A stretch of DNA of 64,000 bases from Thiogranum sp. (GTDB lineage Bacteria > Pseudomonadota > Gammaproteobacteria > DSM-19610): contig JASBSS010000018.1 of assembly GCA_030148805.1 (NCBI GenBank), forward strand, positions 62,001 through 126,000, given 5' to 3'. The notes beneath the pieces are model-generated. The model was given only the letters and a program-made list of their open reading frames with translations, was not told the DNA's origin and did not search any database. Below, in pieces: positions 9,347 through 34,806 of the stretch. Both the position numbers and the translations under genes were made by a program. How positions within the stretch are numbered: the first letter of the stretch is position 1; each line of letters begins with the position of its first letter.

Positions 9347-10105
9347 TCACACAGGATTCTCTATGTCCAGAAAAGTATGTTGTATACCGAAGTGCGCCGC
9401 CAGGTGCTCGCCCAGCGCCTGCACCCCGTAGCGCTCGGTGGCGTGATGACCGGCGGCGAAATAATGGATGCCATATTCGCGCGCGATATGCGTACTGGCC
9501 TCGGAGATTTCGCCGCTGACGAACGCGTCCAGCCCCCTTCGGGCCGCGGTTTCCAGATAGGATTGCGCCGCGCCGGTGCACCAGCCGATGGTTTCGATGC
9601 GGGCGGGGCCGGTGCCGACGTGCAGCGGTTCGCGGCCCAGAGTCCGCGCCAGGCGCGCGCTCAGTTGGTCGCTGGTGGCGGGCTCCCCGAGCCGCCCGCA
9701 CCAGACCAGGGGCGGTCCGTCGGCCTGACCGAAGCCATCGGTTTGCCGCCAGCCCATGCGCGCCGCCAGCTGGGCGTTGTTGCCCAGTTGGGCATGCGCG
9801 TCGAGCGGCAGATGATAGGCCACCAGGCTGATCCCGGCCCCCAGCAGGGCCCGGATGCGCCGCGCGCGCATCCCGGTCAGCACCGGACTCTCGTTCTTCC
9901 AGAAATAGCCATGGTGGACCAGCAGTACATCGGCCTGGTGGGCGATTGCCGCCTCGATCAGCGCCTGGCTGGCGGTCACGCCACTGACGATGCGCCCCAC
10001 TTCGGCCCGACCTTCCACCTGCAACCCGTTGGGACAGTAGTCGCGAAACCGTTGCGCATCCAGCAATTCGTCACAATAGTCCACCAGGGGCTGCAATCCG
10101 ATCAC
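9347..10105 (-). CDS. NIF3-like dinuclear metal-center protein (YbgI family)
   Basis: A 252-residue cytoplasmic protein of the Nif3/DUF34 family, which forms toroidal hexamers with two metal ions per subunit. Metal-ligand motifs visible are LLVHHGYFWK, AYHLPLDAHAQLGNNAQLA, and FVSGEISE with AAGHHATERYGVQALGEHL near the end. GTP cyclohydrolase-like or metal-chaperone roles have been suggested for the family, and the true function is not settled. It is divergent from the DegS-like gene, as in many Proteobacteria. Confidence 0.9.
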   Translation of the reverse strand: MIGLQPLVDYCDELLDAQRFRDYCPNGLQVEGRAEVGRIVSGVTASQALIEAAIAHQADVLLVHHGYFWKNESPVLTGMRARRIRALLGAGISLVAYHLPLDAHAQLGNNAQLAARMGWRQTDGFGQADGPPLVWCGRLGEPATSDQLSARLARTLGREPLHVGTGPARIETIGWCTGAAQSYLETAARRGLDAFVSGEISEASTHIAREYGIHYFAAGHHATERYGVQALGEHLAAHFGIQHTFLDIENPV

Positions 10106-17109: not shown

Positions 17110-17651
17110 CGACCGGCCCGCGCCCGCCGACTCCAGGTGACCACGTAGTCCAGTCCGCTCCAGACGACGCTGACGGTCACGGCGTAGATCAGCAGCGGGT
17201 TCCAGCCCGTCGGCACCCAGGGCGCGATCTGCTGCACGATCACCACCAGCACCAACAGGATCTGCAAAAAGGTATTGAGCTTGCTGATCAGCGTCGGCTG
17301 CGCCTCCAGCCGGGCGACGCGAAAATTGTAGACGATGGCGCCCGCGACGATGATCACGTCGCGCGCCACCACCAGCACCAGCAACCACAAAGGCAGCAAC
17401 CCGATCCAGGCGAGCGCCGCGTAACAGGTCACCAGCAGCAGCTTGTCGGCCAGCGGGTCGAGCAGCGCCCCAAGGCGACTGGTCCAGCCGTATTGCTTGG
17501 CCAGGAAGCCGTCCACGGCGTCGGAAAAACCGGCGAGAAAGAACAAGCCCAGCGCCGGGGCAAAGCGATGCTCCAGCAACAGCCAGGCCACCGGCGCCAC
17601 CAGCAGGATCCGCAGCAGCGTAATCAGATTGGGTATGTCCTTGCGGGTCAC
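17106..17651 (-). CDS. CDP-alcohol phosphatidyltransferase family membrane protein
   Basis: A 181-residue membrane protein of the PgsA-like family. The CDP-alcohol motif is SDAVDGFLAKQYGWTSRLG followed by ALLDPLADK; the four Asp are present, but the usual AR after DG is AK. The family joins a CDP-diacylglycerol to an alcohol such as glycerol-3-phosphate. Four or five membrane segments are visible. The start is GTG at 17651, overlapping the DUF2066 gene stop. The exact substrate cannot be told. Confidence 0.85.
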   Translation of the reverse strand: MTRKDIPNLITLLRILLVAPVAWLLLEHRFAPALGLFFLAGFSDAVDGFLAKQYGWTSRLGALLDPLADKLLLVTCYAALAWIGLLPLWLLVLVVARDVIIVAGAIVYNFRVARLEAQPTLISKLNTFLQILLVLVVIVQQIAPWVPTGWNPLLIYAVTVSVVWSGLDYVVTWSRRARAGR

Positions 17652-23896: not shown

Positions 23897-25312
23897 TCAC
23901 ACGGTTGCGCGTTCGCCGCCGGGGAACACCATCGTCACCACCAGCCCGGGACGATTGTCCCCGAAGGTGAGATGCGCCTGATGCAGTCCGGCGATGGCGT
24001 TGACCAGACTGAGACCCAAGCCGTTGCCGGGGCTGCTGCGGGCCTGATCGAGACGGGTGAAGCGCTGCAACACGCGCTCGCGGTCGGCTGCGGGGATGCC
24101 CGGCCCCTGGTCGGACACACGGATCCGGGCGCCCGTGGCGTCGGCCTCGACCCGCACCTGCACCTGGGTGCCGCGCGGCGAATACTTGATGGCATTTTCC
24201 AGCAAATTGCCCAGCGCCTGGGCCAGCAGATCGCTGTTGCCGTGCACCGTGGCGCGGGCCGTGGCCCGCAACGAAAGATCCTGCCCCCGCTGCTGTGCCA
24301 AGGGCAGATAAAACTCCACGCCCTGGGCGGCGATCGCGGTCAGGTCCACAGGCTGCATTTTCACCCGTAGCGTGCCCGCCTCGGCTTGAGCGATCTGCAA
24401 GATGGCGTTAAAGCTGCGCATGAGCTCTTCGGTGTCACGGATGGATTCCTCTATCACCCGCCGATACTCGTCGCCGTGGCGCTCGCCGAGCAACACCACG
24501 TCCAGACGATTGCGCAGGCGCGCCAGTGGCCGGCGCAGGTCGTGGGCGACGTTGTCGGTCACATCGCGCATCCCCTGCATCAACTGCTCGATCCGATCGA
24601 GCATGTTGTTCAAGCGGCCCGACAACTCGTCGAACTCATCGCCTCGACCGCTCAAAGGAACGCGCCGCGACAGGTCGCCGCGGATGATGGTCTCGGAAGT
24701 GGCAGTGATATTGTCGATGCGCGCCAGAATCGTACGCCCCATGAACACACCCATGGCCAACGCCAGCAGCACGATGATCACCAGCAGGCCGGAGAGCGCG
24801 TAGATACTGAACAGCTGCATCTCGTCGGCCTGGGCCACACTACGGGTGAGCAGCAGGATCGAGCCGTCGGCAAACCGCTTGCCGATCGCCGGCCAGTATT
24901 CATCCTCGTCGCCGACGTTGGGATACATATCGTCATCGATCCACGCAGGGTGCACGGTTTCATCGAGCGTCACCTGATCGTCCCGCTCCCGCGGCCAGCG
25001 GGCCAGATTGCCGGCCACCTTACGCCCCTGGGCATCGGTCAGCAGATAGTAACGGCCGTCCGGGCCGCCGCCCCGGCTTCTTGCGACCACCTCGCGACGC
25101 AAGGCCGCGAACCCCTGCGCCGCTTCGGTATTGCGCAGATCCACGAACTCGTCGTGCAAGCCGGCGTACAGCTGAGCGTCGACGTAGCGGCTGGTCGCCC
25201 AGTGATAGGCACCGAGCGCCGCCCCGGCCAACAGGATGTACAGACTGGCATACCACAGTGACGTCCGCACGGCGGTGGTGCGGAACAGACGCTTGAGTTC
25301 AGGGCGTGTCAC
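23897..25312 (-). CDS. Two-component sensor histidine kinase
   Basis: A 471-residue inner-membrane kinase. TM1 is at about 15-35 (SLWYASLYILLAGAALGAYHW), a periplasmic domain of about 120 residues follows, and TM2 is at about 170-192. A HAMP domain (VPLSGRGDEFDELSGRLNNM) leads to the H-box DNVAHDLRRPLARLRNRL with H257. The ATPase part has LLENAIKYSPRG, SDQGPGIPA and GNGLGLSLVNAI. It resembles QseC/CusS-type kinases. The start is GTG, overlapping the regulator gene by 14 bp. The periplasmic domain is acidic (DDDMYPNVGDEDEY), which could suit cation sensing, but this is inference. Confidence 0.9.
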   Translation of the reverse strand: MTRPELKRLFRTTAVRTSLWYASLYILLAGAALGAYHWATSRYVDAQLYAGLHDEFVDLRNTEAAQGFAALRREVVARSRGGGPDGRYYLLTDAQGRKVAGNLARWPRERDDQVTLDETVHPAWIDDDMYPNVGDEDEYWPAIGKRFADGSILLLTRSVAQADEMQLFSIYALSGLLVIIVLLALAMGVFMGRTILARIDNITATSETIIRGDLSRRVPLSGRGDEFDELSGRLNNMLDRIEQLMQGMRDVTDNVAHDLRRPLARLRNRLDVVLLGERHGDEYRRVIEESIRDTEELMRSFNAILQIAQAEAGTLRVKMQPVDLTAIAAQGVEFYLPLAQQRGQDLSLRATARATVHGNSDLLAQALGNLLENAIKYSPRGTQVQVRVEADATGARIRVSDQGPGIPAADRERVLQRFTRLDQARSSPGNGLGLSLVNAIAGLHQAHLTFGDNRPGLVVTMVFPGGERATV

Positions 25313-25976
25313 TGAGCTTGTAGCCGACACCACGGATGGTGTGCAGCAGCGGCGGCGCGAAGCCACGATCGATCTTGGTGCGCAAGCGGCTGATATGCAC
25401 GTCGACCACATTGGTCTGGGGGTCGAAGTGATAGTCCCATACCTGCTCCAACAGCATCGTGCGGGTCACCACCTGACGTTGATGCCGCAAGAGAAAGTTC
25501 AACAGTCGGAATTCGCGCGACTGCAGGCGAATCAGCCGTCCGGCGCGGGTCACCCGATGGGCATTCAGATCCATCACCAGATCGGCCAGTTGGATCCGCG
25601 AGTCCGACTCCTCCGGTCGTTGCCGTCGCACCAAGGCATCCAGGCGCGCCAGCAGCTCGCTGAAGGCATAGGGTTTGACCAGATAGTCATCGCCGCCGGC
25701 CTGCAGGCCCGTCACCCGATCGTCGACTTCGCCGAGCGCCGAGAGCACCAGCGCCGGCGTGCGATCGCCGCCGGCGCGCAGCATTCGGATCACCGCCAGC
25801 CCGTCCCGACCCGGCAGCATACGGTCGACAATGAGCGCCTCATACCCGCCGCCGAGCGCCAGCTGCAGCCCGTCTTCGCCGTCAGCGGCGTGGTCCACGC
25901 TGTGGCCGCTTTCGTTGAGTCCTTTCAGCAGATAACCGGCCGCGTCGCCATCGTCTTCGATCAACAGGATATGCAT
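25299..25976 (-). CDS. OmpR-family response regulator
   Basis: A 225-residue regulator. The receiver domain has E7-D8-D9, phosphoacceptor D51 (LIVDRMLPGRDG) and YLVKPYAFSELLAR. The winged-helix DNA-binding domain has LQSREFRLLNFLLRHQRQVVTR and DVHISRLRTKID, with HTIRGVGYKL at the end. It pairs with the overlapping kinase gene. A TATTAT hexamer (25985-25990) has the palindrome ATTACC-N4-GGTAAT 21 bp upstream, so autoregulation is likely. The same palindrome stands before the RND pump genes. Confidence 0.92.
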   Translation of the reverse strand: MHILLIEDDGDAAGYLLKGLNESGHSVDHAADGEDGLQLALGGGYEALIVDRMLPGRDGLAVIRMLRAGGDRTPALVLSALGEVDDRVTGLQAGGDDYLVKPYAFSELLARLDALVRRQRPEESDSRIQLADLVMDLNAHRVTRAGRLIRLQSREFRLLNFLLRHQRQVVTRTMLLEQVWDYHFDPQTNVVDVHISRLRTKIDRGFAPPLLHTIRGVGYKLSDTP

Positions 25977-26011
25977 ACCCGCCCATAATAGCCGCAGCGA
26001 TCCGCCACCGC

Positions 26012-26027
26012 ATTACCGTATGGTAAT
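26012..26027. promoter_or_regulatory. Putative response-regulator operator, site 1
   Basis: ATTACC-GTAT-GGTAAT, a perfect 6-bp inverted repeat with a 4-bp spacer. It sits between the divergent regulator gene and the Cys-rich secreted-protein gene. Measured from the TATTAT hexamer of the regulator gene, its centre would lie near -42, where OmpR-type activators bind. An almost identical site is at 34055-34070. Confidence 0.65.
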
Positions 26028-26114
26028 ACTCCCGCCACCTTCGCGACATGGCCGCGCCCCTAGACTCCCTGTGGTCGAGACGACAGTTCATGCCCTGGCG
26101 CAAGGAGTCGCATC

Positions 26115-27119
26115 ATGTACCTGACAAACCACACCCGTCGCAATCCGCTTGCCAACACCCCCGGCGCCAGCCCGTGGTTGATGGCGCTGCTCCTGGCCTC
26201 CACCGCGGTGCTGGCCGATGAAGACAAACACAACGCGCGCGAGCGTGATGACGCCGCCCGCGGGCCCTGTTCCACGACCGCCCGCCTGGCCTACCAGGCA
26301 TGCCGGAACGACGTGCGCGACAACTATTTCCTGCAACTGGGAAAATGCCAGAATGAAGCCCAGCGCGACAGGCGAAACGTGTGTAACACCGAGGCCAAGA
26401 AAACTCGCGACGAAGCCCGCAGCCTATGCGGCGAACAGAGAGTCGCGCGCCTGGAGATCTGCGCACTGGTGGGCGAGGCGCCTTACGATCCGGCCATCAA
26501 CAGCGCGGATTTTCTCAGCCCCGAGCAGACCGCGATGAATCCCAACCCCTGGTTTCCCCTGGTACCCGGGACCATCCGCGTTTACCGGGCCGGCGATGAA
26601 ACCACCACCGTTACGGTCACCGCCGACACTCGGATCCTGCTCGGCGTGACCACCCTGGCAGTGCGCGACGTCGTTACGCGCGGCGGCGTCCCGATCGAGG
26701 ACACCACCGACTGGTACGCCCAGGACCTCTACGGCAACGTCTGGTATTTCGGCGAAGTGGCGCAAAACTTCGACCAGGGCATACTCACCGATCTGGACGG
26801 TTCCTGGGCTGCGGGTGTCGATGGCGCCAAACCTGGTATCCAGATGCCCGCGGCGCCCCAGGTCGGCGACGTGTATCGGCAGGAGTTTCTCCTCGCAGAG
26901 GCCGAGGACATGGCGCAGGTACGCAATCTGCACGCGTCGGCGAGCGTCGCCGCCGAAGGTGCCAGCTGTTCCGGCAATTGCCTGCAGACGCGGGAATTCC
27001 TTCCCTTGGAACCGGACGCGGTGGAATTCAAGTTCTACACCCCCGGGGTGGGCCACATCCTCACGCTCGATGCGAACACCGGCGAACGCGAGGAACTCGT
27101 CGAGCTTATCAGACCCTGA
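26115..27119 (+). CDS. Uncharacterised Cys-rich secreted protein
   Basis: A 334-residue exported protein; the signal peptide ends near VLADE (about residue 35). I do not recognise its family. The mature N-terminal part (about 48-120) is helical, rich in charge and has spaced cysteines (GPCSTT, YQACRND, GKCQNEA, NVCNTEA, SLCGEQ, EICALV). A beta-rich part follows with WFPLVPGTIRVYRAGDETT, TDWYAQDLYGNVWYFGE, CSGNCLQTREFLPLE and a YTPGVGHILTLD end. AAGGAG (26102-26107) precedes the ATG. It is divergent from the two-component system and shares its operator region, so it is a likely target. A terminator follows. Confidence 0.75.
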   Translation: MYLTNHTRRNPLANTPGASPWLMALLLASTAVLADEDKHNARERDDAARGPCSTTARLAYQACRNDVRDNYFLQLGKCQNEAQRDRRNVCNTEAKKTRDEARSLCGEQRVARLEICALVGEAPYDPAINSADFLSPEQTAMNPNPWFPLVPGTIRVYRAGDETTTVTVTADTRILLGVTTLAVRDVVTRGGVPIEDTTDWYAQDLYGNVWYFGEVAQNFDQGILTDLDGSWAAGVDGAKPGIQMPAAPQVGDVYRQEFLLAEAEDMAQVRNLHASASVAAEGASCSGNCLQTREFLPLEPDAVEFKFYTPGVGHILTLDANTGEREELVELIRP

Positions 27120-27143
27120 GATCACCGCCCTTGCAGAGGGCTT

Positions 27144-27176
27144 GCAGGGAGGGCCCAAGCCCCCCCTGCTTTTTTC
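27144..27176 (+). terminator. Rho-independent terminator
   Basis: GCAGGGAGGG-CCCAAGC-CCCCCCTGC followed by TTTTTT. The stem is GC rich with one mismatch or bulge. It lies about 25 bp past the stop of the Cys-rich secreted-protein gene and separates it from the porin gene. Confidence 0.75.
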
Positions 27177-27250
27177 TTTACGCCGCCACCCGTGGCGCTG
27201 CATAATAAAAACAACCCGCCGACCCACAAGAAACGCCCAAGGTTCCAGCC

Positions 27251-28366
27251 GTCAACACTGCACCCGCGCGATTCATTGCCGACGCTTTCACGGCGGCCGT
27301 CACCGGCACCCTGGCACTGTGCCTGATCATCGGCCCGAGCGCGCAGGCCGATGCGCCGACCCCGGAGACCCAAGACAGCGTGCGGCTCTACAGCACGCGC
27401 TCGGAGCAACGTGAAGCGGGCATCGAACACAAGCTGACCCCGTGGCTGAGCGTCGCCGGGCTGGCGGAGTTCGAGTGGGAATACGACAATAACGCCTTCA
27501 GCAACCTGCGTTCGAATCATGGCAATGCCGATGCGGCGGCCAATGTCCAGCTACACAGCAGCGTGACGCCCCTGTCGTTTGCCAGCGGCGAGTTGATCCT
27601 GAACTATGATACGGATCAAGACCGCCTCGGGCTGGACGAAGCCACCGCCGCCCTGGAACTGGGCGACTGGGAGCTGGGCTACGGCCGCCAGTATCTGCCA
27701 TTCGGGGTTTATTTCAGTCATTTTGCCAGTGCACCGCTGCTGGAATTCGGCGAGACGCGGGACGTCGCGCTCAACCTGGATTACGACTACGGCGATCGGT
27801 TTAGCGTCTCCGCCGCGCTCTTTCGCGGGCAGGGGCGCAACCAAAACTCCTCGGGTTCGCGCGCCCCTGACTGGGCACTGGCGCTATCGACCTGGGTGAA
27901 CGGCTCGCTGCGGCTGGGGGCCAGCTATCTATCCGATCTTGCCGACGCCGACGGTGACCTGCTTGCCGACAACGGTCACCGCCACCTGCGGCAAGTGGGT
28001 GCGTACAGCGCTTATCTGCTGTGGTCGTCCGAGCATTTCGAAGTGACCGCCGAGGCGATTGCCGCCACCGGCCCCTTGCGCGAATTACCCGCCGATCGGA
28101 ATCAGCCGTTGGCCTGGAATCTGGAGTTCGCCCAGTTCCTGCACGCCCATTTCGACTGGGCACTGCGTCTCGAAGGCAGCCGCGAACTCCAGGACGCGGC
28201 GCAATTACGCTATGGCGCGTCGATCAGTTTTCGTGCCGGCCGCTACGCCAGCCTGACCCTGGATTATCTGCGCAGCCGCTACAAGCCAAATTTTGTCCGC
28301 GACGACGGCGGCCATCCCCTGAACCACGCCGACCGCCTGGCGGCTCAGCTGTCTATCGCCTTCTAG
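27251..28366 (+). CDS. LbtU-like siderophore porin, non-standard start
   Basis: An outer-membrane beta-barrel protein of about 371 residues. Alternating segments (LSVAGLAEFEWEYDN, LGDWELGYGRQYLPFGVYFSHF, VALNLDYDYGDRFSVSAALFRGQ, LRLGASYLSDL) and the terminal LAAQLSIAF are typical of barrels; order and motifs resemble LbtU of legiobactin uptake. The frame is open from 27206. A good signal peptide (FTAAVTGTLALCLIIGPSAQADA) lies upstream of the first GTG at 27380, but it has no ATG, GTG or TTG. The most likely start site is GTC at 27251, 8 nt after AAGG, where GTG may have mutated; ATT at 27275 is another choice. Translation or activity may be impaired. Confidence 0.6.
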   Translation, partial: VNTAPARFIADAFTAAVTGTLALCLIIGPSAQADAPTPETQDSVRLYSTRSEQREAGIEHKLTPWLSVAGLAEFEWEYDNNAFSNLRSNHGNADAAANVQLHSSVTPLSFASGELILNYDTDQDRLGLDEATAALELGDWELGYGRQYLPFGVYFSHFASAPLLEFGETRDVALNLDYDYGDRFSVSAALFRGQGRNQNSSGSRAPDWALALSTWVNGSLRLGASYLSDLADADGDLLADNGHRHLRQVGAYSAYLLWSSEHFEVTAEAIAATGPLRELPADRNQPLAWNLEFAQFLHAHFDWALRLEGSRELQDAAQLRYGASISFRAGRYASLTLDYLRSRYKPNFVRDDGGHPLNHADRLAAQLSIAF

Positions 28367-31300
28367 CGAATTTTTCCGCCGTCGACGTCAGTCCCCGATA
28401 TACCAACGGCATGACGATGAGCACCAGGGGGATCTGCACCACCAGGCCGGCGATGATGGCAACCGCCAAAGGTTGCTGCATTGCCGCGCCCTGACCGAGC
28501 GCCAATGCCAGCGGCGAGAGCGCCAGAATCGCGGCCAGCGTGGTCATGGCGATCGGCCGCAGTCGGTTGTGCCCGGCCTGCACCAGCGCAGCGGCCCGGT
28601 CGACACCGGCGCGCACCAGTTCGTGGTATTCCGAGAAGTAAAAGATCGACACTTCGGTGACTATGCCCACGATCATCGTCATACCCATCATGGCGGTGAT
28701 GTTCAATTCGATACCGGTCACCCACAAACCGGTAAACACCGCCGCCATCGCCAACAGCGGCGCGCTCATGATGGCCAGCGCCGCGGCGAACTCCTCGTAC
28801 AAGAACAGCAACAAGAGAAACACCAGCGCCAGGGCGGCGACGAACACCCCGATGAGACCGCGAAACGCGATCTGCTGCTGCTGATACAAACCTCCCAGTT
28901 CAAAATACATCGACCCCGGCAACAGACCGTCACGCCCCAGCACCTGCTTGACCTGACGTATCGTCGAGCCCAGATCGCGTCCACTGATACGCGCGGTCAC
29001 CGCCACCATGCGCTTGAGATTGTCGCGCACGATCTGCGCCTGCCCGGTCTCCACGCCGACGTGCGCGACCCGTTTGAGCGGAAAACGGTGGCCGTCCGGC
29101 GCGCGCAGCCAGAGGCTATCGATGGCGGCGATGCGCTCGCGGGCCGCGGGCGGCACCCACACACGCACCCCCACCAGCTTGACATCCTCCTGGATCCGGG
29201 TGGTCACCAGACCCTCGAACCAGGCGTTGAGCTGCTGCGTAACCGCGTCCGGATCGATGCCCTCCAGCGCCGCCTTGTCGCGATCGACGACGATGTTGAC
29301 GGCGTCGCCTGCCAGCACGATACCGCTCTTGACGTCGACCACGCCGTCGATGGCGGCGATCGCCTTCGCCACCCGTGGCGCGGTGGCGGCCAACGCCTGC
29401 GGCTGGTCGCTGTAGAGCTTGATCTCGATCGGTTGCGGCACGGCCGTCAGATCGCCGATCAGATCCTCCATCAGCAAGGCCATTTCCACCTCCACACCGG
29501 GCACCCGCTGCTCGATGCGCCGGCGGATATCGTCCATGACCTGGTCGATGGGCGCGCGCGGCAGCGACTTGAGGCGGACGAAGATATCGCCCTCGTTGGC
29601 CTCGGTGAGACCGCCGCCGAGTTGCAGCCCGGTGCGGCGCGAATAGGTCTCAACGGCGGGATTGGCGCGCAAAACCGCCTCCAGCTGGCGCAGCAGACGG
29701 TCGGTTTCGCTCAGCGAGGTCCCCGCGGGGATGCGGTAGTCGAGAATAAAACCGCCCTCGTCCATGTGCGGCATGAAACCGGAACCCACCTGTTGATAGG
29801 CGAAATAACCGACCAGCAGCAGCGGCACCACCCCCAGGCCCACGAGTAGCGGGCGGCGCATCAAGCGCTGCATCAACCGTAGATAGCCCGCCTGTAGCCT
29901 GGCGAAGCGACCGCCGACGTCCTCGCGCTCGCCGTCGCGGGCACTGAGCAGGTGTTCGGCCAGCAGCGGCACCGCCAGCCAGGCCAGCAGAAAGGAGATG
30001 ACTAGGCTGCTGGCCATGGTCAACGACAGAGCCTTGAAAAACGCCCCCGTCACCCCGCCGAGAAACGCCAGCGGCGCGAAAATGACGATGGTGGCTGCCG
30101 ACGACCCCGCCAGCGGGGGGGTGAACTCGATGGCAGCGCTGCGAATGCTCGGCGCCAGCTCGCCACTGCGCTCGCGCAAGCGGCGGATGATGTGCTCGAT
30201 CATCACGATGGCGTCGTCGACAATCAGCCCGACCGCCGCGGCCATCCCGCCCAGCGTCATAATATTGAAGCTCATGTGCAGCACCTGGAGCAGCACCAGG
30301 GTGCTGGCCAGTACCGCGGGCACGATAAAGACGGCAATCAGGGTGATCTTCAGGCTGCGCAGAAACAGCAGCAATACCAGCGCCGCCAGCACCACGCCGA
30401 TGGCGATGGCATCCCGCACGCTGCCGGCCGCGGCGGTGATCAGCTGGCTCTGGTCATACCAGTTGGCGATCTGTACACCGGCGGGGAGCTTGTCGCGATA
30501 CGCAGCGAGACGGCGCTGAACGTCGCCCACGATCTGCACGGTATTGCCATCGGGCTGCTGATAGACCTGCACCAGTACGGCATCCTGGCCGTCGGCGGTC
30601 ACCCGCTGCCACTGTGGCGCCAGCGTCGGGAAGACGCGCGCGATGTCCTCCAGCCGCACCAGACCGTCGGCCCCGCTGCGCAGCACCGTGTTTTCGATAC
30701 TGGCCAGCGAGCGCAAGCGGGTATCGGACAACAACAGGTAAAGTTTGTAGCGCTCCTCCATGCGCCCGACGGCCTGTAGTACATTGCTCGCCGACAGGGC
30801 CGTGGCCACATCGGCGAAGGTCAATCCGTAGGCGGCCAGCTTCTCGGGGTCGACCTCGACGCGATACTCGGCCTGCTCGCCGCCGAGCACCGCCACCCGG
30901 GCCACGCCGTTGATCGACGACAGCAACGGCACCAGCTGATAACTGGCCAGATCGCGCAGCTGCACCAGCGTTTCGCTGTCCGAACGCAGGCTGTAGGCGG
31001 CCACCGGAAATACCGTCGGATCCATCCGCCGCACACTGAAGCGGGTGCCCGCCGGCAGTTCGGCCAGCACCTGGTTGATGGCCGATTCGACCTGCAACAG
31101 GGCGGAGACCATATCGTCGCCCCAGGCAAAATTGATCGACAACTCGGCGCTGCCCCGGCTGGTCGTGGAGCGCAGCCCGACCACGCCCGGCACCGAACGC
31201 ACCGCCTGCTCCACCGGCCGGGTGACGGCGATGACCATCTGATCGGCCGGGCGATCGCCAGCGTCGAGGGTGACTACCACACGGGGAAAATCGACGTGCG

Positions 31301-31412
31301 GAAACAGGGCCACCGGCAGACGGAACGCGGCGGCGACCCCGGCCAGCGCCAACAGGGCGGCCAGGAACAGAATCGAGCGGCGGTGCACGGCCGCCCAATG
31401 GACAATACCCAT
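28353..31412 (-). CDS. RND efflux transporter permease
   Basis: A 1019-residue proton-driven pump of the inner membrane with the RND layout: TM1 (about 12-30), a large periplasmic domain, TM2-6 (about 340-470), TM7, a second periplasmic domain and TM8-12. The proton-relay motif in TM4 is GLIVDDAIVMIEH with the two Asp. This suits drug/amphiphile (HAE-like) pumps rather than heavy-metal CusA pumps, though assignment by eye is limited. It forms one operon with the adaptor (1-bp overlap) and outer-membrane factor. Its 3' end overlaps the porin gene by 14 bp. Confidence 0.9.
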   Translation of the reverse strand: MGIVHWAAVHRRSILFLAALLALAGVAAAFRLPVALFPHVDFPRVVVTLDAGDRPADQMVIAVTRPVEQAVRSVPGVVGLRSTTSRGSAELSINFAWGDDMVSALLQVESAINQVLAELPAGTRFSVRRMDPTVFPVAAYSLRSDSETLVQLRDLASYQLVPLLSSINGVARVAVLGGEQAEYRVEVDPEKLAAYGLTFADVATALSASNVLQAVGRMEERYKLYLLLSDTRLRSLASIENTVLRSGADGLVRLEDIARVFPTLAPQWQRVTADGQDAVLVQVYQQPDGNTVQIVGDVQRRLAAYRDKLPAGVQIANWYDQSQLITAAAGSVRDAIAIGVVLAALVLLLFLRSLKITLIAVFIVPAVLASTLVLLQVLHMSFNIMTLGGMAAAVGLIVDDAIVMIEHIIRRLRERSGELAPSIRSAAIEFTPPLAGSSAATIVIFAPLAFLGGVTGAFFKALSLTMASSLVISFLLAWLAVPLLAEHLLSARDGEREDVGGRFARLQAGYLRLMQRLMRRPLLVGLGVVPLLLVGYFAYQQVGSGFMPHMDEGGFILDYRIPAGTSLSETDRLLRQLEAVLRANPAVETYSRRTGLQLGGGLTEANEGDIFVRLKSLPRAPIDQVMDDIRRRIEQRVPGVEVEMALLMEDLIGDLTAVPQPIEIKLYSDQPQALAATAPRVAKAIAAIDGVVDVKSGIVLAGDAVNIVVDRDKAALEGIDPDAVTQQLNAWFEGLVTTRIQEDVKLVGVRVWVPPAARERIAAIDSLWLRAPDGHRFPLKRVAHVGVETGQAQIVRDNLKRMVAVTARISGRDLGSTIRQVKQVLGRDGLLPGSMYFELGGLYQQQQIAFRGLIGVFVAALALVFLLLLFLYEEFAAALAIMSAPLLAMAAVFTGLWVTGIELNITAMMGMTMIVGIVTEVSIFYFSEYHELVRAGVDRAAALVQAGHNRLRPIAMTTLAAILALSPLALALGQGAAMQQPLAVAIIAGLVVQIPLVLIVMPLVYRGLTSTAEKFARRR

Positions 31413-32449
31413 CAGGGGCGGGTCCGGACAGACATTCCGTCGGTCAACTCATAGTTACCGCTGGTCACCACCTGATCGCCGTGGCGCAGGTCGCCGGACA
31501 CTTCGATCAGGTCCCCCGAACGTGCACCGACACGTACCGCGACACGACGCGCACGACCGCCCTCAAGCCTATACAGGTGGGTGTCCGGGGATTGCCCGAG
31601 GATGGCGCTTTGCGGCACCGTCAGGGCCTGGCGCGTGGCCAGGCGGATGCGCCCCAGCACCCGGCTGCCCAAAACCAGCCGATCGACCTGCGCGGCGGGG
31701 ATGGGCACCAGAATTTCGACCAGATGGGTGGCCGGATCGATCATGGCATGCACTTCGCGCACGCGCGACTCGACCCGGACCGCGGGACCGAACACCGAGG
31801 TGATCGTGACGCCAGTGCCTACGCTTAAGCCCCCCAGGTCCTCGGGTTCGACACCCAGCCGCGCGATCAGCTTCTGCTCGGCGGCGATCAGCATGGCCGT
31901 GGTGTCGGCTTGCACGCGCTGTCCCTGGGAAACGTCCAGGCGGGTGACAATCCCATCCATGGGAGCGCGCAGGATTTCGCTGGCCACATCCAGACCGCGT
32001 TGACGCAGGGCGTCCAAGGTGGCGCGCGCGTCCTGGAGATTCTTCTCGGCCACATCGACCTGGGACTTGGTGGCGAGTTGTTCCGCGAACAACCGTTGCT
32101 GCCGTTGGCGCTCGCGCCGGGCATAGTCGACCGCGCTCTGTGCCTGTAGATACTGCATGCGCGCATCGGGAGCGGTGACCACCTCCAGCAGCCGGTCACC
32201 GCTGTTCACGCGCTGCCCCAAGCGCACCCAGACCCGATTGATCAAACCGGCGTGCGGCAGCGACAGACTCAACACCTGATCCGGGTCGGGATCGAGCACG
32301 CCGAAAGCCGACAGTGTGTCGTGCACCGCCTGCGTCTGCACCGTCGCGGTCGTCACCAACACGCTGGAATTCTCGGCCACCGCCGGTGGCGGCGGCGCCA
32401 TCAGCAACAGCAGGCAAAGCAAGGCAGGTACGGCAACCCGTCGGTTCAC
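31412..32449 (-). CDS. RND efflux periplasmic adaptor (membrane fusion protein)
   Basis: A 345-residue exported protein, signal peptide ending near AVAEN (about residue 25). Lipoyl half-motifs flank a helical hairpin: LSLPHAGLINRVWVRLGQRVNSGDRL, then the coiled coil (YLQAQSAVDYARRERQRQQRLF to ARATLDALRQRG), then LRAPMDGIVTRLDVSQGQRVQ. Beta-barrel and membrane-proximal domains follow. It connects permease and TolC-like channel. It overlaps the channel gene by 4 bp (ATGA). Confidence 0.9.
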   Translation of the reverse strand: MNRRVAVPALLCLLLLMAPPPPAVAENSSVLVTTATVQTQAVHDTLSAFGVLDPDPDQVLSLSLPHAGLINRVWVRLGQRVNSGDRLLEVVTAPDARMQYLQAQSAVDYARRERQRQQRLFAEQLATKSQVDVAEKNLQDARATLDALRQRGLDVASEILRAPMDGIVTRLDVSQGQRVQADTTAMLIAAEQKLIARLGVEPEDLGGLSVGTGVTITSVFGPAVRVESRVREVHAMIDPATHLVEILVPIPAAQVDRLVLGSRVLGRIRLATRQALTVPQSAILGQSPDTHLYRLEGGRARRVAVRVGARSGDLIEVSGDLRHGDQVVTSGNYELTDGMSVRTRP

Positions 32450-33882
32450 GGCGTCTCCTTCTGGTCGGGATTGGGCATTGTTGTCAGTGGCTGCTCGGGA
32501 TAGCCGGGCAAGGCCAGCAGCGCTTCCAGAGCGATGCGATTCTCCCAGCGGCTTTGCTCCAGGCTGATCTGCTCGAGGCGTTTATTCACCCAGGTGGATT
32601 CCATGTTGAGAAACGTCAGCGCCTGGATATCGCCCCGGCCGTACGCCCGGCGAGCGCGTTCGACCAGCGCCTTGAGCCGCGGCAGATACTGCTGCAACCG
32701 CTGCTGCTGTTGCTGCAACAGCGTTTGCAACCGCAGCAGCCGATCCACGTCCATGCGCGTGTGCGCCAGCCGCGCCCGGTACTCCTGGCGCAACTGCTCG
32801 CGCGTGGCGGCTTCCACCGCGATGGCGCCGCGATTGGCGCTAAACAGCGGCAGCGTGAGATTGACGCTCAGCCCGACGGTCTCGACATCGCCGGTGTCGC
32901 GCGCCCGGTTGACGCCGATGCCGAGGGAGGGAAACTGCGCCAGGACGGCCGCTCTGACACTGGCCTCCTGACTGGCATAACCGGCCTGCAGTGCCAATAA
33001 ATCCGGTCGCAGGCGCGGCAGGACGCGCAGCCGCGCCCGCGCTTCCTGGGCGCTCACCGTCGCCGGAGACGCCAGCGGCACCAGGGTCACATCCACCTCC
33101 GGGGCCAACCCCAACAGCAGATTGAAGTCGTGTCGGGTCTGGTTATGCGTCTGTTCGAGCTGGTTGATCTGGCTGAAGGTGTCGATCAGCGCAGTCAGAT
33201 CGGTACCGTTGACATCGAGGGTCAAGTTACCGGCGGCGAGCGCGCGCGCCGAGCGTTGATAGCGCTCCTGATAAAGGTCTCGGATGGCGTGCAACAGCGC
33301 CAGGCGCCGCTGCTCGAGCTGCAACCGCACCGCCAGCGAACGCGCCTGCTGAATGACCTGCCACTCCTGCCACAGCAGATCGAGGCGGACCTTGTCTTCG
33401 CCACGGCGGGCGGCGTCGAGGCGCGACTGACGGGTCAGCAGCGGAACAATATCGTAGCCCAGGCCGAAGGACCAGGCGTTGACCAGGCCGGCGGTGTTCC
33501 CGGTGGGCTTATCGAAGCCCGCGCTGAGTTGCGGATCCGGCAACAGGCCCGCCGCAAAAGCCTGCGCCCCGGCCACTGCCAGGCGCGCGCGCTGGGCGCG
33601 TAATTGCGGATTATTGAGCACCGCCAGGGTCCCCACTTCGGTCAGATCCAGACCGTCGGTGGGATCGAACTCGGCGCCGCCTGCGCCATTGGCACCGCGG
33701 GTGGCCGCGCTGCGCAAGGCCTCGAGCGACGGCGCCAGCGCGGGGTCGTCCGGCAAGGGGCGTGGCTGGTAGGTCGCACAGCCGGCGAGCACAGCCGCAA
33801 GCCCCAGTACCCCGACGAGCCGTCCTCGCCGCCTGGGTTTCCAGCCAGAGGCCGTCCCGCCTTGACGGGAAAGATCATTCAC
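32446..33882 (-). CDS. TolC-family outer-membrane efflux lipoprotein
   Basis: A 478-residue outer-membrane channel. The signal ends in lipobox VLAGC (residue about 29). TolC-type repeats are visible: TVLNNPQLRAQRARLAVAGA-like AVLNNPQLRAQRARLAVAG, LLPDPQLSAGF, and in the second half LRPDLLALQAGYASQEASVRAA and FPSLGIGVNRARDTG with LTLPLFSANRGAI. The long helix HTRMDVDRLLRLQTLLQQQQQRLQQYLPRLKALVERA is part of the tunnel. The GTG at 33882 was chosen over a TTG at 33984 because it gives a normal signal. It is the first gene of the pump operon; its upstream region holds operator site 2. Confidence 0.9.
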   Translation of the reverse strand: MNDLSRQGGTASGWKPRRRGRLVGVLGLAAVLAGCATYQPRPLPDDPALAPSLEALRSAATRGANGAGGAEFDPTDGLDLTEVGTLAVLNNPQLRAQRARLAVAGAQAFAAGLLPDPQLSAGFDKPTGNTAGLVNAWSFGLGYDIVPLLTRQSRLDAARRGEDKVRLDLLWQEWQVIQQARSLAVRLQLEQRRLALLHAIRDLYQERYQRSARALAAGNLTLDVNGTDLTALIDTFSQINQLEQTHNQTRHDFNLLLGLAPEVDVTLVPLASPATVSAQEARARLRVLPRLRPDLLALQAGYASQEASVRAAVLAQFPSLGIGVNRARDTGDVETVGLSVNLTLPLFSANRGAIAVEAATREQLRQEYRARLAHTRMDVDRLLRLQTLLQQQQQRLQQYLPRLKALVERARRAYGRGDIQALTFLNMESTWVNKRLEQISLEQSRWENRIALEALLALPGYPEQPLTTMPNPDQKETP

Positions 33883-34054
33883 GAGCCTGTTTGCTCCTAG
33901 AGTTGTCGCGTTCGGGAGAGTCCACCAGCCGGCCTTGCGCAACACGGCATAACGCGCGCGGCCCCCCTTTTCAGTTATCGTCAAACTAGCACAAGATAAC
34001 AGAGATCAAGACAATGTCAGGCCGGCATTCTGCCCCGCTCCGGCCTTGGCGGAC

Positions 34055-34070
34055 ATTACCATTCGGTAAT
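34055..34070. promoter_or_regulatory. Putative response-regulator operator, site 2
   Basis: ATTACC-ATTC-GGTAAT, the same palindrome as at 26012-26027. It lies between the divergent efflux operon and the methyltransferase gene. Toward the pump genes a CAGAAT hexamer (34027-34032) is 22 bp away, against 21 bp for the TATTAT of the regulator gene at site 1. A further GGTAAT half-site is at 34087-34092. Confidence 0.65.
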
Positions 34071-34116
34071 CTCCGCACAAGTTTGCGGTAATGCCCCCCC
34101 TGCTACGCTCTGCGGC

Positions 34117-34806
34117 ATGAAAAAACTCAACACTCAGTTCAGCCATGGCGAGGCGAACCCGCCGGAAACCGACTGGCGCCTGCAACGGGCCCGCACGGTA
34201 CGCCTGTCTCTGATACGCCGCAGCTTCGTCGCCTTGATCATCACCAGCGGAGTACTGCTTACGCCCTTGACCTCGCGCTGGCCGGTCACTGGTCCTTTCA
34301 TGCGCGATGTTACGGTTATGTTAGGAATGCTGTTGATCGGCACCGGCGCGGCCCTGAGGTTGTGGGCCGGCCTCTATCTCGGCGGCCACAAGGAGCGCCG
34401 GCTGGTTACCTGGGGCCCCTACAGCTGCGTGCGCAATCCGCTCTACCTGGGGAACATTGTCGCCGCCGGGGGCATCGGCCTGATCAGTGGATCGCCCTAT
34501 GTACTGATATTGACGCTGGCCGCGACGACACTGGTCTACCTCGCCACGATCCGCCAGGAAGAACACAAACTGCAACCGATCTTTGGCCCTGACTACACCC
34601 GCTATCTGCAGGCGGCGCCGCCCCTGCTGCCGCACCCGGGCGCCGTGCGCCGCCTGATCAGCGACACCACGCCCTGTATCATCACCCATTTCAGCCTGGC
34701 GCGCGAACTCAGGCGCTGTCTCGGCCTGGTGGCGCTCGGCTTCGTCGCCTTCGGGCTGGCGACCGCCGCCCCTCTGGTTCAAAGCCACCTGGCCGCGTTG
34801 CTCTGA
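34117..34806 (+). CDS. Isoprenylcysteine methyltransferase-like membrane protein
   Basis: A 229-residue membrane protein. Hydrophobic segments are at about 35-52, 65-85, 115-140 and 200-222. The ICMT/PEMT-like signature is VTWGPYSCVRNPLYLGNIVAAGG and later IRQEEHKLQPIFGPDYTRYLQ, in which SAM-binding residues lie. Bacterial members methylate lipid-like or small substrates that are mostly unknown. Promoter and start are unclear: TACGCT (34104-34109) would leave almost no leader. Its divergence from the pump operon across the operator suggests co-regulation. Confidence 0.8.
   Translation: MKKLNTQFSHGEANPPETDWRLQRARTVRLSLIRRSFVALIITSGVLLTPLTSRWPVTGPFMRDVTVMLGMLLIGTGAALRLWAGLYLGGHKERRLVTWGPYSCVRNPLYLGNIVAAGGIGLISGSPYVLILTLAATTLVYLATIRQEEHKLQPIFGPDYTRYLQAAPPLLPHPGAVRRLISDTTPCIITHFSLARELRRCLGLVALGFVAFGLATAAPLVQSHLAALL

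Follow-up and report, generated by a model that had tools for sequence, protein, structure and literature searches.

We conclude that the two copies of the palindrome ATTACC-N4-GGTAAT flanking a block of sensor and efflux genes in Thiogranum sp. are very probably operators of the adjacent OmpR-family response regulator, through which it would activate its own regulator-kinase operon and an OMF-MFP-RND efflux operon, with probable action on the divergent genes. This reading is based on the sequence of the sites, their uniqueness, their conservation, the promoter spacing and the restriction of the motif to one regulator clade; from these we infer that the regulator binds the sites, that it activates rather than represses, that it depends on phosphorylation and that it acts on the divergent genes. 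The window is the whole stretch analyzed, 64,000 nucleotides of contig JASBSS010000018.1 (assembly GCA_030148805.1), and the coordinates given are those of the window. G014 and G003 are two congeners. The genes and predicted operators of the locus are as follows.

23897 to 25333, minus strand: sensor histidine kinase (HAMP, HisKA and HATPase_c by Pfam), exact start uncertain, overlapping the regulator gene
25299 to 25976, minus strand: OmpR-family response regulator (Pfam Response_reg and Trans_reg_C), proposed binder of both operators
26012 to 26027, no strand assigned: predicted operator 1 (ATTACC-GTAT-GGTAAT), which precedes the minus-strand response regulator gene; 16 of 16 bases the same in G014 and G003
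26115 to 27119, plus strand: secreted protein of a family without match, divergent from the regulator and its probable target; homologues are divergent from the regulator in G034 and L079
27380 to 28366, plus strand: LbtU-type porin frame (NF033652, 107.8 bits, cut-off 90)
28353 to 31412, minus strand: RND permease (Pfam ACR_tran), drug-type rather than CusA/CzcA-type by score
31412 to 32449, minus strand: periplasmic adaptor (MFP) of the RND pump (TIGR01730, above cut-off)
32446 to 33882, minus strand: outer-membrane efflux protein (OMF; Pfam OEP), first gene of the efflux operon
34055 to 34070, no strand assigned: predicted operator 2 (ATTACC-ATTC-GGTAAT), with the efflux operon on one side and the methyltransferase gene on the other; 16 of 16 bases the same in G014 and G003
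34117 to 34806, plus strand: PEMT/ICMT-type methyltransferase (Pfam PEMT and ICMT), divergent from the efflux operon and a possible target

The regulator scored above the cut-off for both OmpR-family domains (PF00072, 71.1 bits; PF00486, 95 bits) and belongs to this family. Against TIGR01387, the model of the CzcR/SilR/CopR subfamily, it reached 243.7 bits, below the cut-off of 279.2, and its relatives in L072, L210 and L079 were also below it (247.3, 246.7 and 237.5 bits), whereas the genome also encodes, on contig C31, a cop-type paralogue that scored 336.7. The permease remained below the cut-off of the CusA/CzcA model TIGR00914 (432.9 bits, cut-off 701.45); its score for the drug-type model NF033617 was higher (567.5 bits), yet below that model's own cut-off of 1250, and its nearest solved chain was MdtB. 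The secreted protein had no match in Pfam or NCBIfam. The porin frame extends upstream without an ATG start in the window (27182-27400).

The earlier note had reported one palindrome with identical 6-bp arms at 26012-26027 and 34055-34070. A motif search of the window confirmed this, with ATTACCGTATGGTAAT at 26012 and ATTACCATTCGGTAAT at 34055 sharing both arms. The genome-wide search that it had called for, with many random hits as the unfavorable outcome, returned two perfect matches in 3,775,139 bases, and both were the sites described here. About 0.04 perfect copies per genome are expected from composition, and the reversed control pattern had no match in the same 3,775,139 bases. Two more places in the genome matched with one mismatch; a one-mismatch site on contig C38 falls inside an open frame and was set aside. 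In the window, three matches with two or fewer mismatches were found against 0.44 expected, and none of the shuffles reached three.

Could the palindromes be a chance repeat, or a hairpin or terminator, with no regulatory role? The window contains 46 perfect 6-4-6 inverted repeats, among which four arm sequences (those of the palindrome and three others) are present twice, so repetition by itself is weak evidence. In addition, the same core lies within long hairpins in G008 and G071. The pair is compelling because it is unique genome-wide, intergenic and conserved: two copies at one locus stand against the 0.04 expected, and the sites recur in two congeners and an independent lineage, at a fixed promoter position across the clade. 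Conservation appears to have largely contradicted the chance or hairpin explanation already, and we regard it as highly improbable.

Each of the two congeners has two perfect palindromes in its genome, both at this locus and with spacer bases identical to those of the window. When the alignments were anchored on the palindromes, all 16 core bases were identical at either site, with 9 and 19 identical bases in the 60-base flanks of site 1 and 37 and 12 in those of site 2. The conserved flank of site 2 is the methyltransferase side and includes another GGTAAT, the third half-site, whose 22-bp offset is fixed. G003 has neither the secreted protein nor the porin, and its regulator lies directly next to the 3' end of the permease gene. 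Site 1 is still there despite the loss of the divergent genes, which points to autoregulation as its main role. In G014, the secreted-protein gene is missing and the porin copy (L059, 4042-4240) has an in-frame stop. These genomes suggest that the secreted-protein and porin part of the locus is undergoing decay within the genus.

The predicted promoter elements around the two operators are given below.

25985 to 25990, minus strand: predicted -10 of the regulator gene (TATTAT), separated from operator 1 by 21 bp and from the ATG by 8 nt; TATTAT in G014 and TATGAT in G003, with the 21-bp spacing kept
26061 to 26066, plus strand: predicted -10 of the divergent secreted-protein gene (TAGACT), separated from operator 1 by 33 bp; TACACT in G014 and CAGAAT in L079 at equal distance
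34027 to 34032, minus strand: predicted -10 of the efflux operon (CAGAAT), separated from operator 2 by 22 bp; CAGAAT in G014 and CACAAT in G003
34087 to 34092, plus strand: GGTAAT, the third half-site, offset by 22 bp (two helical turns) from the operator 2 GGTAAT; offset equal in three species
34104 to 34109, plus strand: predicted -10 of the methyltransferase gene (TACGCT, preceded by TG), separated from operator 2 by 33 bp and from the ATG by 7 nt; TACGCT in G014 and TAAGCT in G003, with the spacing kept

The distances claimed earlier were confirmed by reading the sequence directly: TATTAT is 21 bp and CAGAAT 22 bp away from its site, and on both divergent sides the hexamer (TAGACT and TACGCT) lies at 33 bp. 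The accompanying claim of an operator center near -42 held for the spacings, and the center itself, at -42.5, is a prediction from the -10 hexamers with a predicted start. In all core-bearing regulators, the distance from the palindrome to the -10 was 21-24 bp. A -10-like hexamer lies 6-9 nt before the ATG of the regulator gene (25976-25990) and the methyltransferase gene (34104-34117), as well as upstream of the regulator genes in L072-L151. A TANNNT hexamer exactly 6 nt before the ATG was present in 17 of 90 regulator relatives, compared with a per-position mean of 1.33, which makes a leaderless regulator mRNA probable; the same probably applies to the methyltransferase mRNA. The third half-site had been missed in the earlier note; it is present in the window genome and both congeners, and none was seen at site 1 of the window. 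A GTTATC/GATAAC inverted pair downstream of the efflux -10 could not be seen in G014 and G003 and was dropped.

The earlier note also pointed out that each site faces a divergent gene, and took the symmetry to suggest one regulon. A -10-like hexamer was found on the divergent side at 33 bp in the window, G014 and L079 and at about 32 bp in G034 (AAGAAT), in all of which a divergent gene or its remains exist; it is missing at site 1 in G003, where these genes are lost. This part of the claim stands in a weaker form than the rest. The 22-bp and 33-bp distances are about one helical turn apart, and both promoters could thus be served from the same face. There is a substantial possibility, short of an even chance, that the regulator binds both sites while the divergent secreted-protein and porin genes and the methyltransferase gene are unregulated or repressed and the 33-bp symmetry is incidental. 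The persistence of site 1 in G003 and the missing gene and interrupted porin frame in G014 are consistent with this, as is the overlap of the third half-site with the spacer of the methyltransferase promoter: it sits between the -35 and -10 regions, a position that could mean repression there. However, the 33-bp spacing recurs at both sites and across species and is absent only without a divergent gene, and the third half-site and the methyltransferase -10 are both kept in three species. On balance, we favor probable action of the regulator on the divergent genes as well. A hybrid site, ATTACC-N4-TGTAAT (L003, position 1501; G000, contig C1:17524), was also observed; a second PEMT/ICMT-type methyltransferase gene, followed by a YHS-domain gene, lies about 290 bp downstream of it.

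Conservation of the arrangement extends beyond the genus. A gammaproteobacterial MAG, L072, carries the same set of genes (identity: regulator 70%, kinase 47%, permease 81%, MFP 68%, OMF 70%), and TTAC-N6-GTAA occurs only twice in 20 kb, at 9479 before the regulator and at 17386 before the OMF gene. In G034, of another family, ATTACCGCACCGTAAT precedes the regulator and is the sole ATTAC-N6-GTAAT in the genome. We surveyed the upstream regions of 80 regulator relatives and seven others (87 in total). The strict ATTACC search upstream of the 80 relatives gave only three matches, each with two mismatches. In one clade, the core TTAC-N6-GTAA lies 48-51 nt before the regulator ATG, far above shuffled sequence. 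With up to one mismatch, it was found at -54 to -46 from the ATG in eight of the 87 regions, as opposed to a shuffled mean of 0.21 and a maximum of 2 in 1000, figures that are somewhat optimistic since the relaxation to this core was chosen after the data had been viewed. The clustering in the tree and the pair of sites in L072 give partly independent support beside them. A single 25-row clade (97/93) contained all 12 core-bearing regulators, and the cop-type paralogues grouped separately (100/98); on its sequences, this clade is sister to the CzcR/SilR/CopR subfamily. The comparative evidence from the congeners, L072 and the promoter position in the clade supports the single local two-site regulon of the adjacent regulator that the earlier note had suggested.

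The motif is not universal in the clade. A recognizable core is missing in about half of its members, indicating that the operator drifts or is lost. In the strict motif search of 95 related genomes, most matches outside the genus were chance-like, and the control was similar in at least one genome. The second-closest pump orthologues, in G181 (79%) and G215 (78%), have no palindrome, though G215 carries a related regulator (61%) beside the pump. Most of the distant pump orthologues (55-67%) also have none, and several adjoin other two-component systems; thus, the motif does not simply follow the pump. RND pump orthologues were often seen beside distantly related OmpR-family two-component systems (L173, L177-L180, L182, L183 and L186-L188), and this variety of neighbors indicates that pump and regulator have been re-paired several times. 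In the Leucothrix relatives L081 and L084, TTAA-N6-TTAA, readable as a direct or an inverted repeat, occupies the equal promoter position and may be a transition between operator types.

Two further genomes hold the perfect palindrome once each. In G071, the only copy (L202, position 1165) lies about 270 bp upstream of a secreted-protein homologue, at the center of a perfect hairpin with 18-bp arms; in G008, the only copy (L009, position 1501) precedes the matched part of a porin homologue by about 150 bp, at the center of a perfect hairpin with 21-bp arms. Both thus precede homologues of the two genes divergent from the window regulator. Some cop-type boxes of this genus are long inverted repeats too. 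The hairpins of G071 and G008 might be terminators. G071 has a regulator of the motif clade with its own ATTAC-N6-GTAAT upstream, and no close regulator of this clade was found in G008.

The layout of the sites resembles that of known systems. AgrR of Cupriavidus metallidurans binds ATKACA-N4-TGTMAT as a 6-4-6 box on one helix face, with further half-sites in phase with it; it acts from type II positions, regulates itself positively and is active unphosphorylated (PMC7380067). The window sites share with this box the 6-4-6 ATTAC-N6-GTAAT form, an extra in-phase half-site, the place over the -35 region, autoregulation (predicted here) and metal-type relatives of the regulator. They match five of six arm bases and depart from the AgrR consensus at the inner base, which is C/G here and A/T in AgrR (ATTACA-N4-TGTAAT). 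Moreover, unlike AgrR, the regulator lies outside the curated CzcR/SilR/CopR subfamily and the permease is drug-type by score. In Pseudomonas, a related palindrome is common to CusR, CopR and CzcR (PMC11195947), and the regulon of E. coli CusR consists of a single target (PMC8249747). A palindromic operator between divergent units, autoregulation together with control of an adjacent resistance operon, and a very small regulon, all predicted here, are common to these systems (PMC11195947, PMC8249747), but the arm sequence is different and two operators flank the block rather than one shared intergenic operator. OmpR and other tandem-site regulators are of the same protein family and many act as activators; their sites are direct repeats (PMC7380067), in contrast to the inverted repeats found here. 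In a literature search, none of the listed titles and abstracts described an ATTACC/GGTAAT operator for response regulators.

A further comparison is within the genome itself. The C31 paralogue also has an ATTAC-N6-GTAAT inverted repeat upstream of its own gene, but with ATTACA arms (ATTACA-N4-TGTAAT), in a longer palindrome and 91 nt before the ATG, against 50 here. The genome thus also contains cop-type paralogues whose box deviates by a single base in each arm, and cross-regulation of CusR, CopR and CzcR via one palindrome is documented in Pseudomonas (PMC11195947). For these reasons, we considered whether the two sites are mainly operators of another regulator such as the C31 paralogue, under shared or crossed control. 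This is unlikely: across the clade, the sites track the gene of the local regulator and hold a fixed position in its promoter, the one ATTAC-N6-GTAAT of G034 precedes an orthologue of the local regulator, and the recognition-helix regions are unlike (DVHISRLR in the local regulator and DVAIRRLR in the paralogue). Because these regions differ in accordance with the boxes, the C/G arm base suggests, without proving it, insulation of the local system from the C31 system.

Taking the local regulator as the one that acts at both sites, we propose that it would bind each palindrome as a symmetric dimer over the -35 region, centered at about -42.5, so that the promoters would need only a -10. It would then activate two operons, the one that encodes the regulator itself with its kinase and the efflux operon (OMF-MFP-RND), the third in-phase half-site strengthening the efflux operator. 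The same dimers would probably act on the divergent genes, whose -10 at 33 bp puts the center at about -53.5, one turn further. More tentatively, the clade may be an uncharacterised OmpR-family branch with a C/G-variant inverted repeat, a leaderless autoregulated promoter and two-way activation (-42.5/-53.5), its targets being a drug-type RND pump and a secreted protein with a porin, and it may answer a non-metal stress.

Mechanistically, the system is of a known type; its operator is a variant and its regulator clade is uncharacterised. What is new is the conserved third half-site and the predicted leaderless regulator promoter. An unannotated block thereby becomes a testable regulon of two operators whose sequence is defined, and the regulator clade, found in several gammaproteobacterial lineages, is linked to a target motif. 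The one-base difference between the two boxes, together with the difference between the two helices, offers a natural case in which to study crosstalk avoidance by paralogous regulators in one cell.
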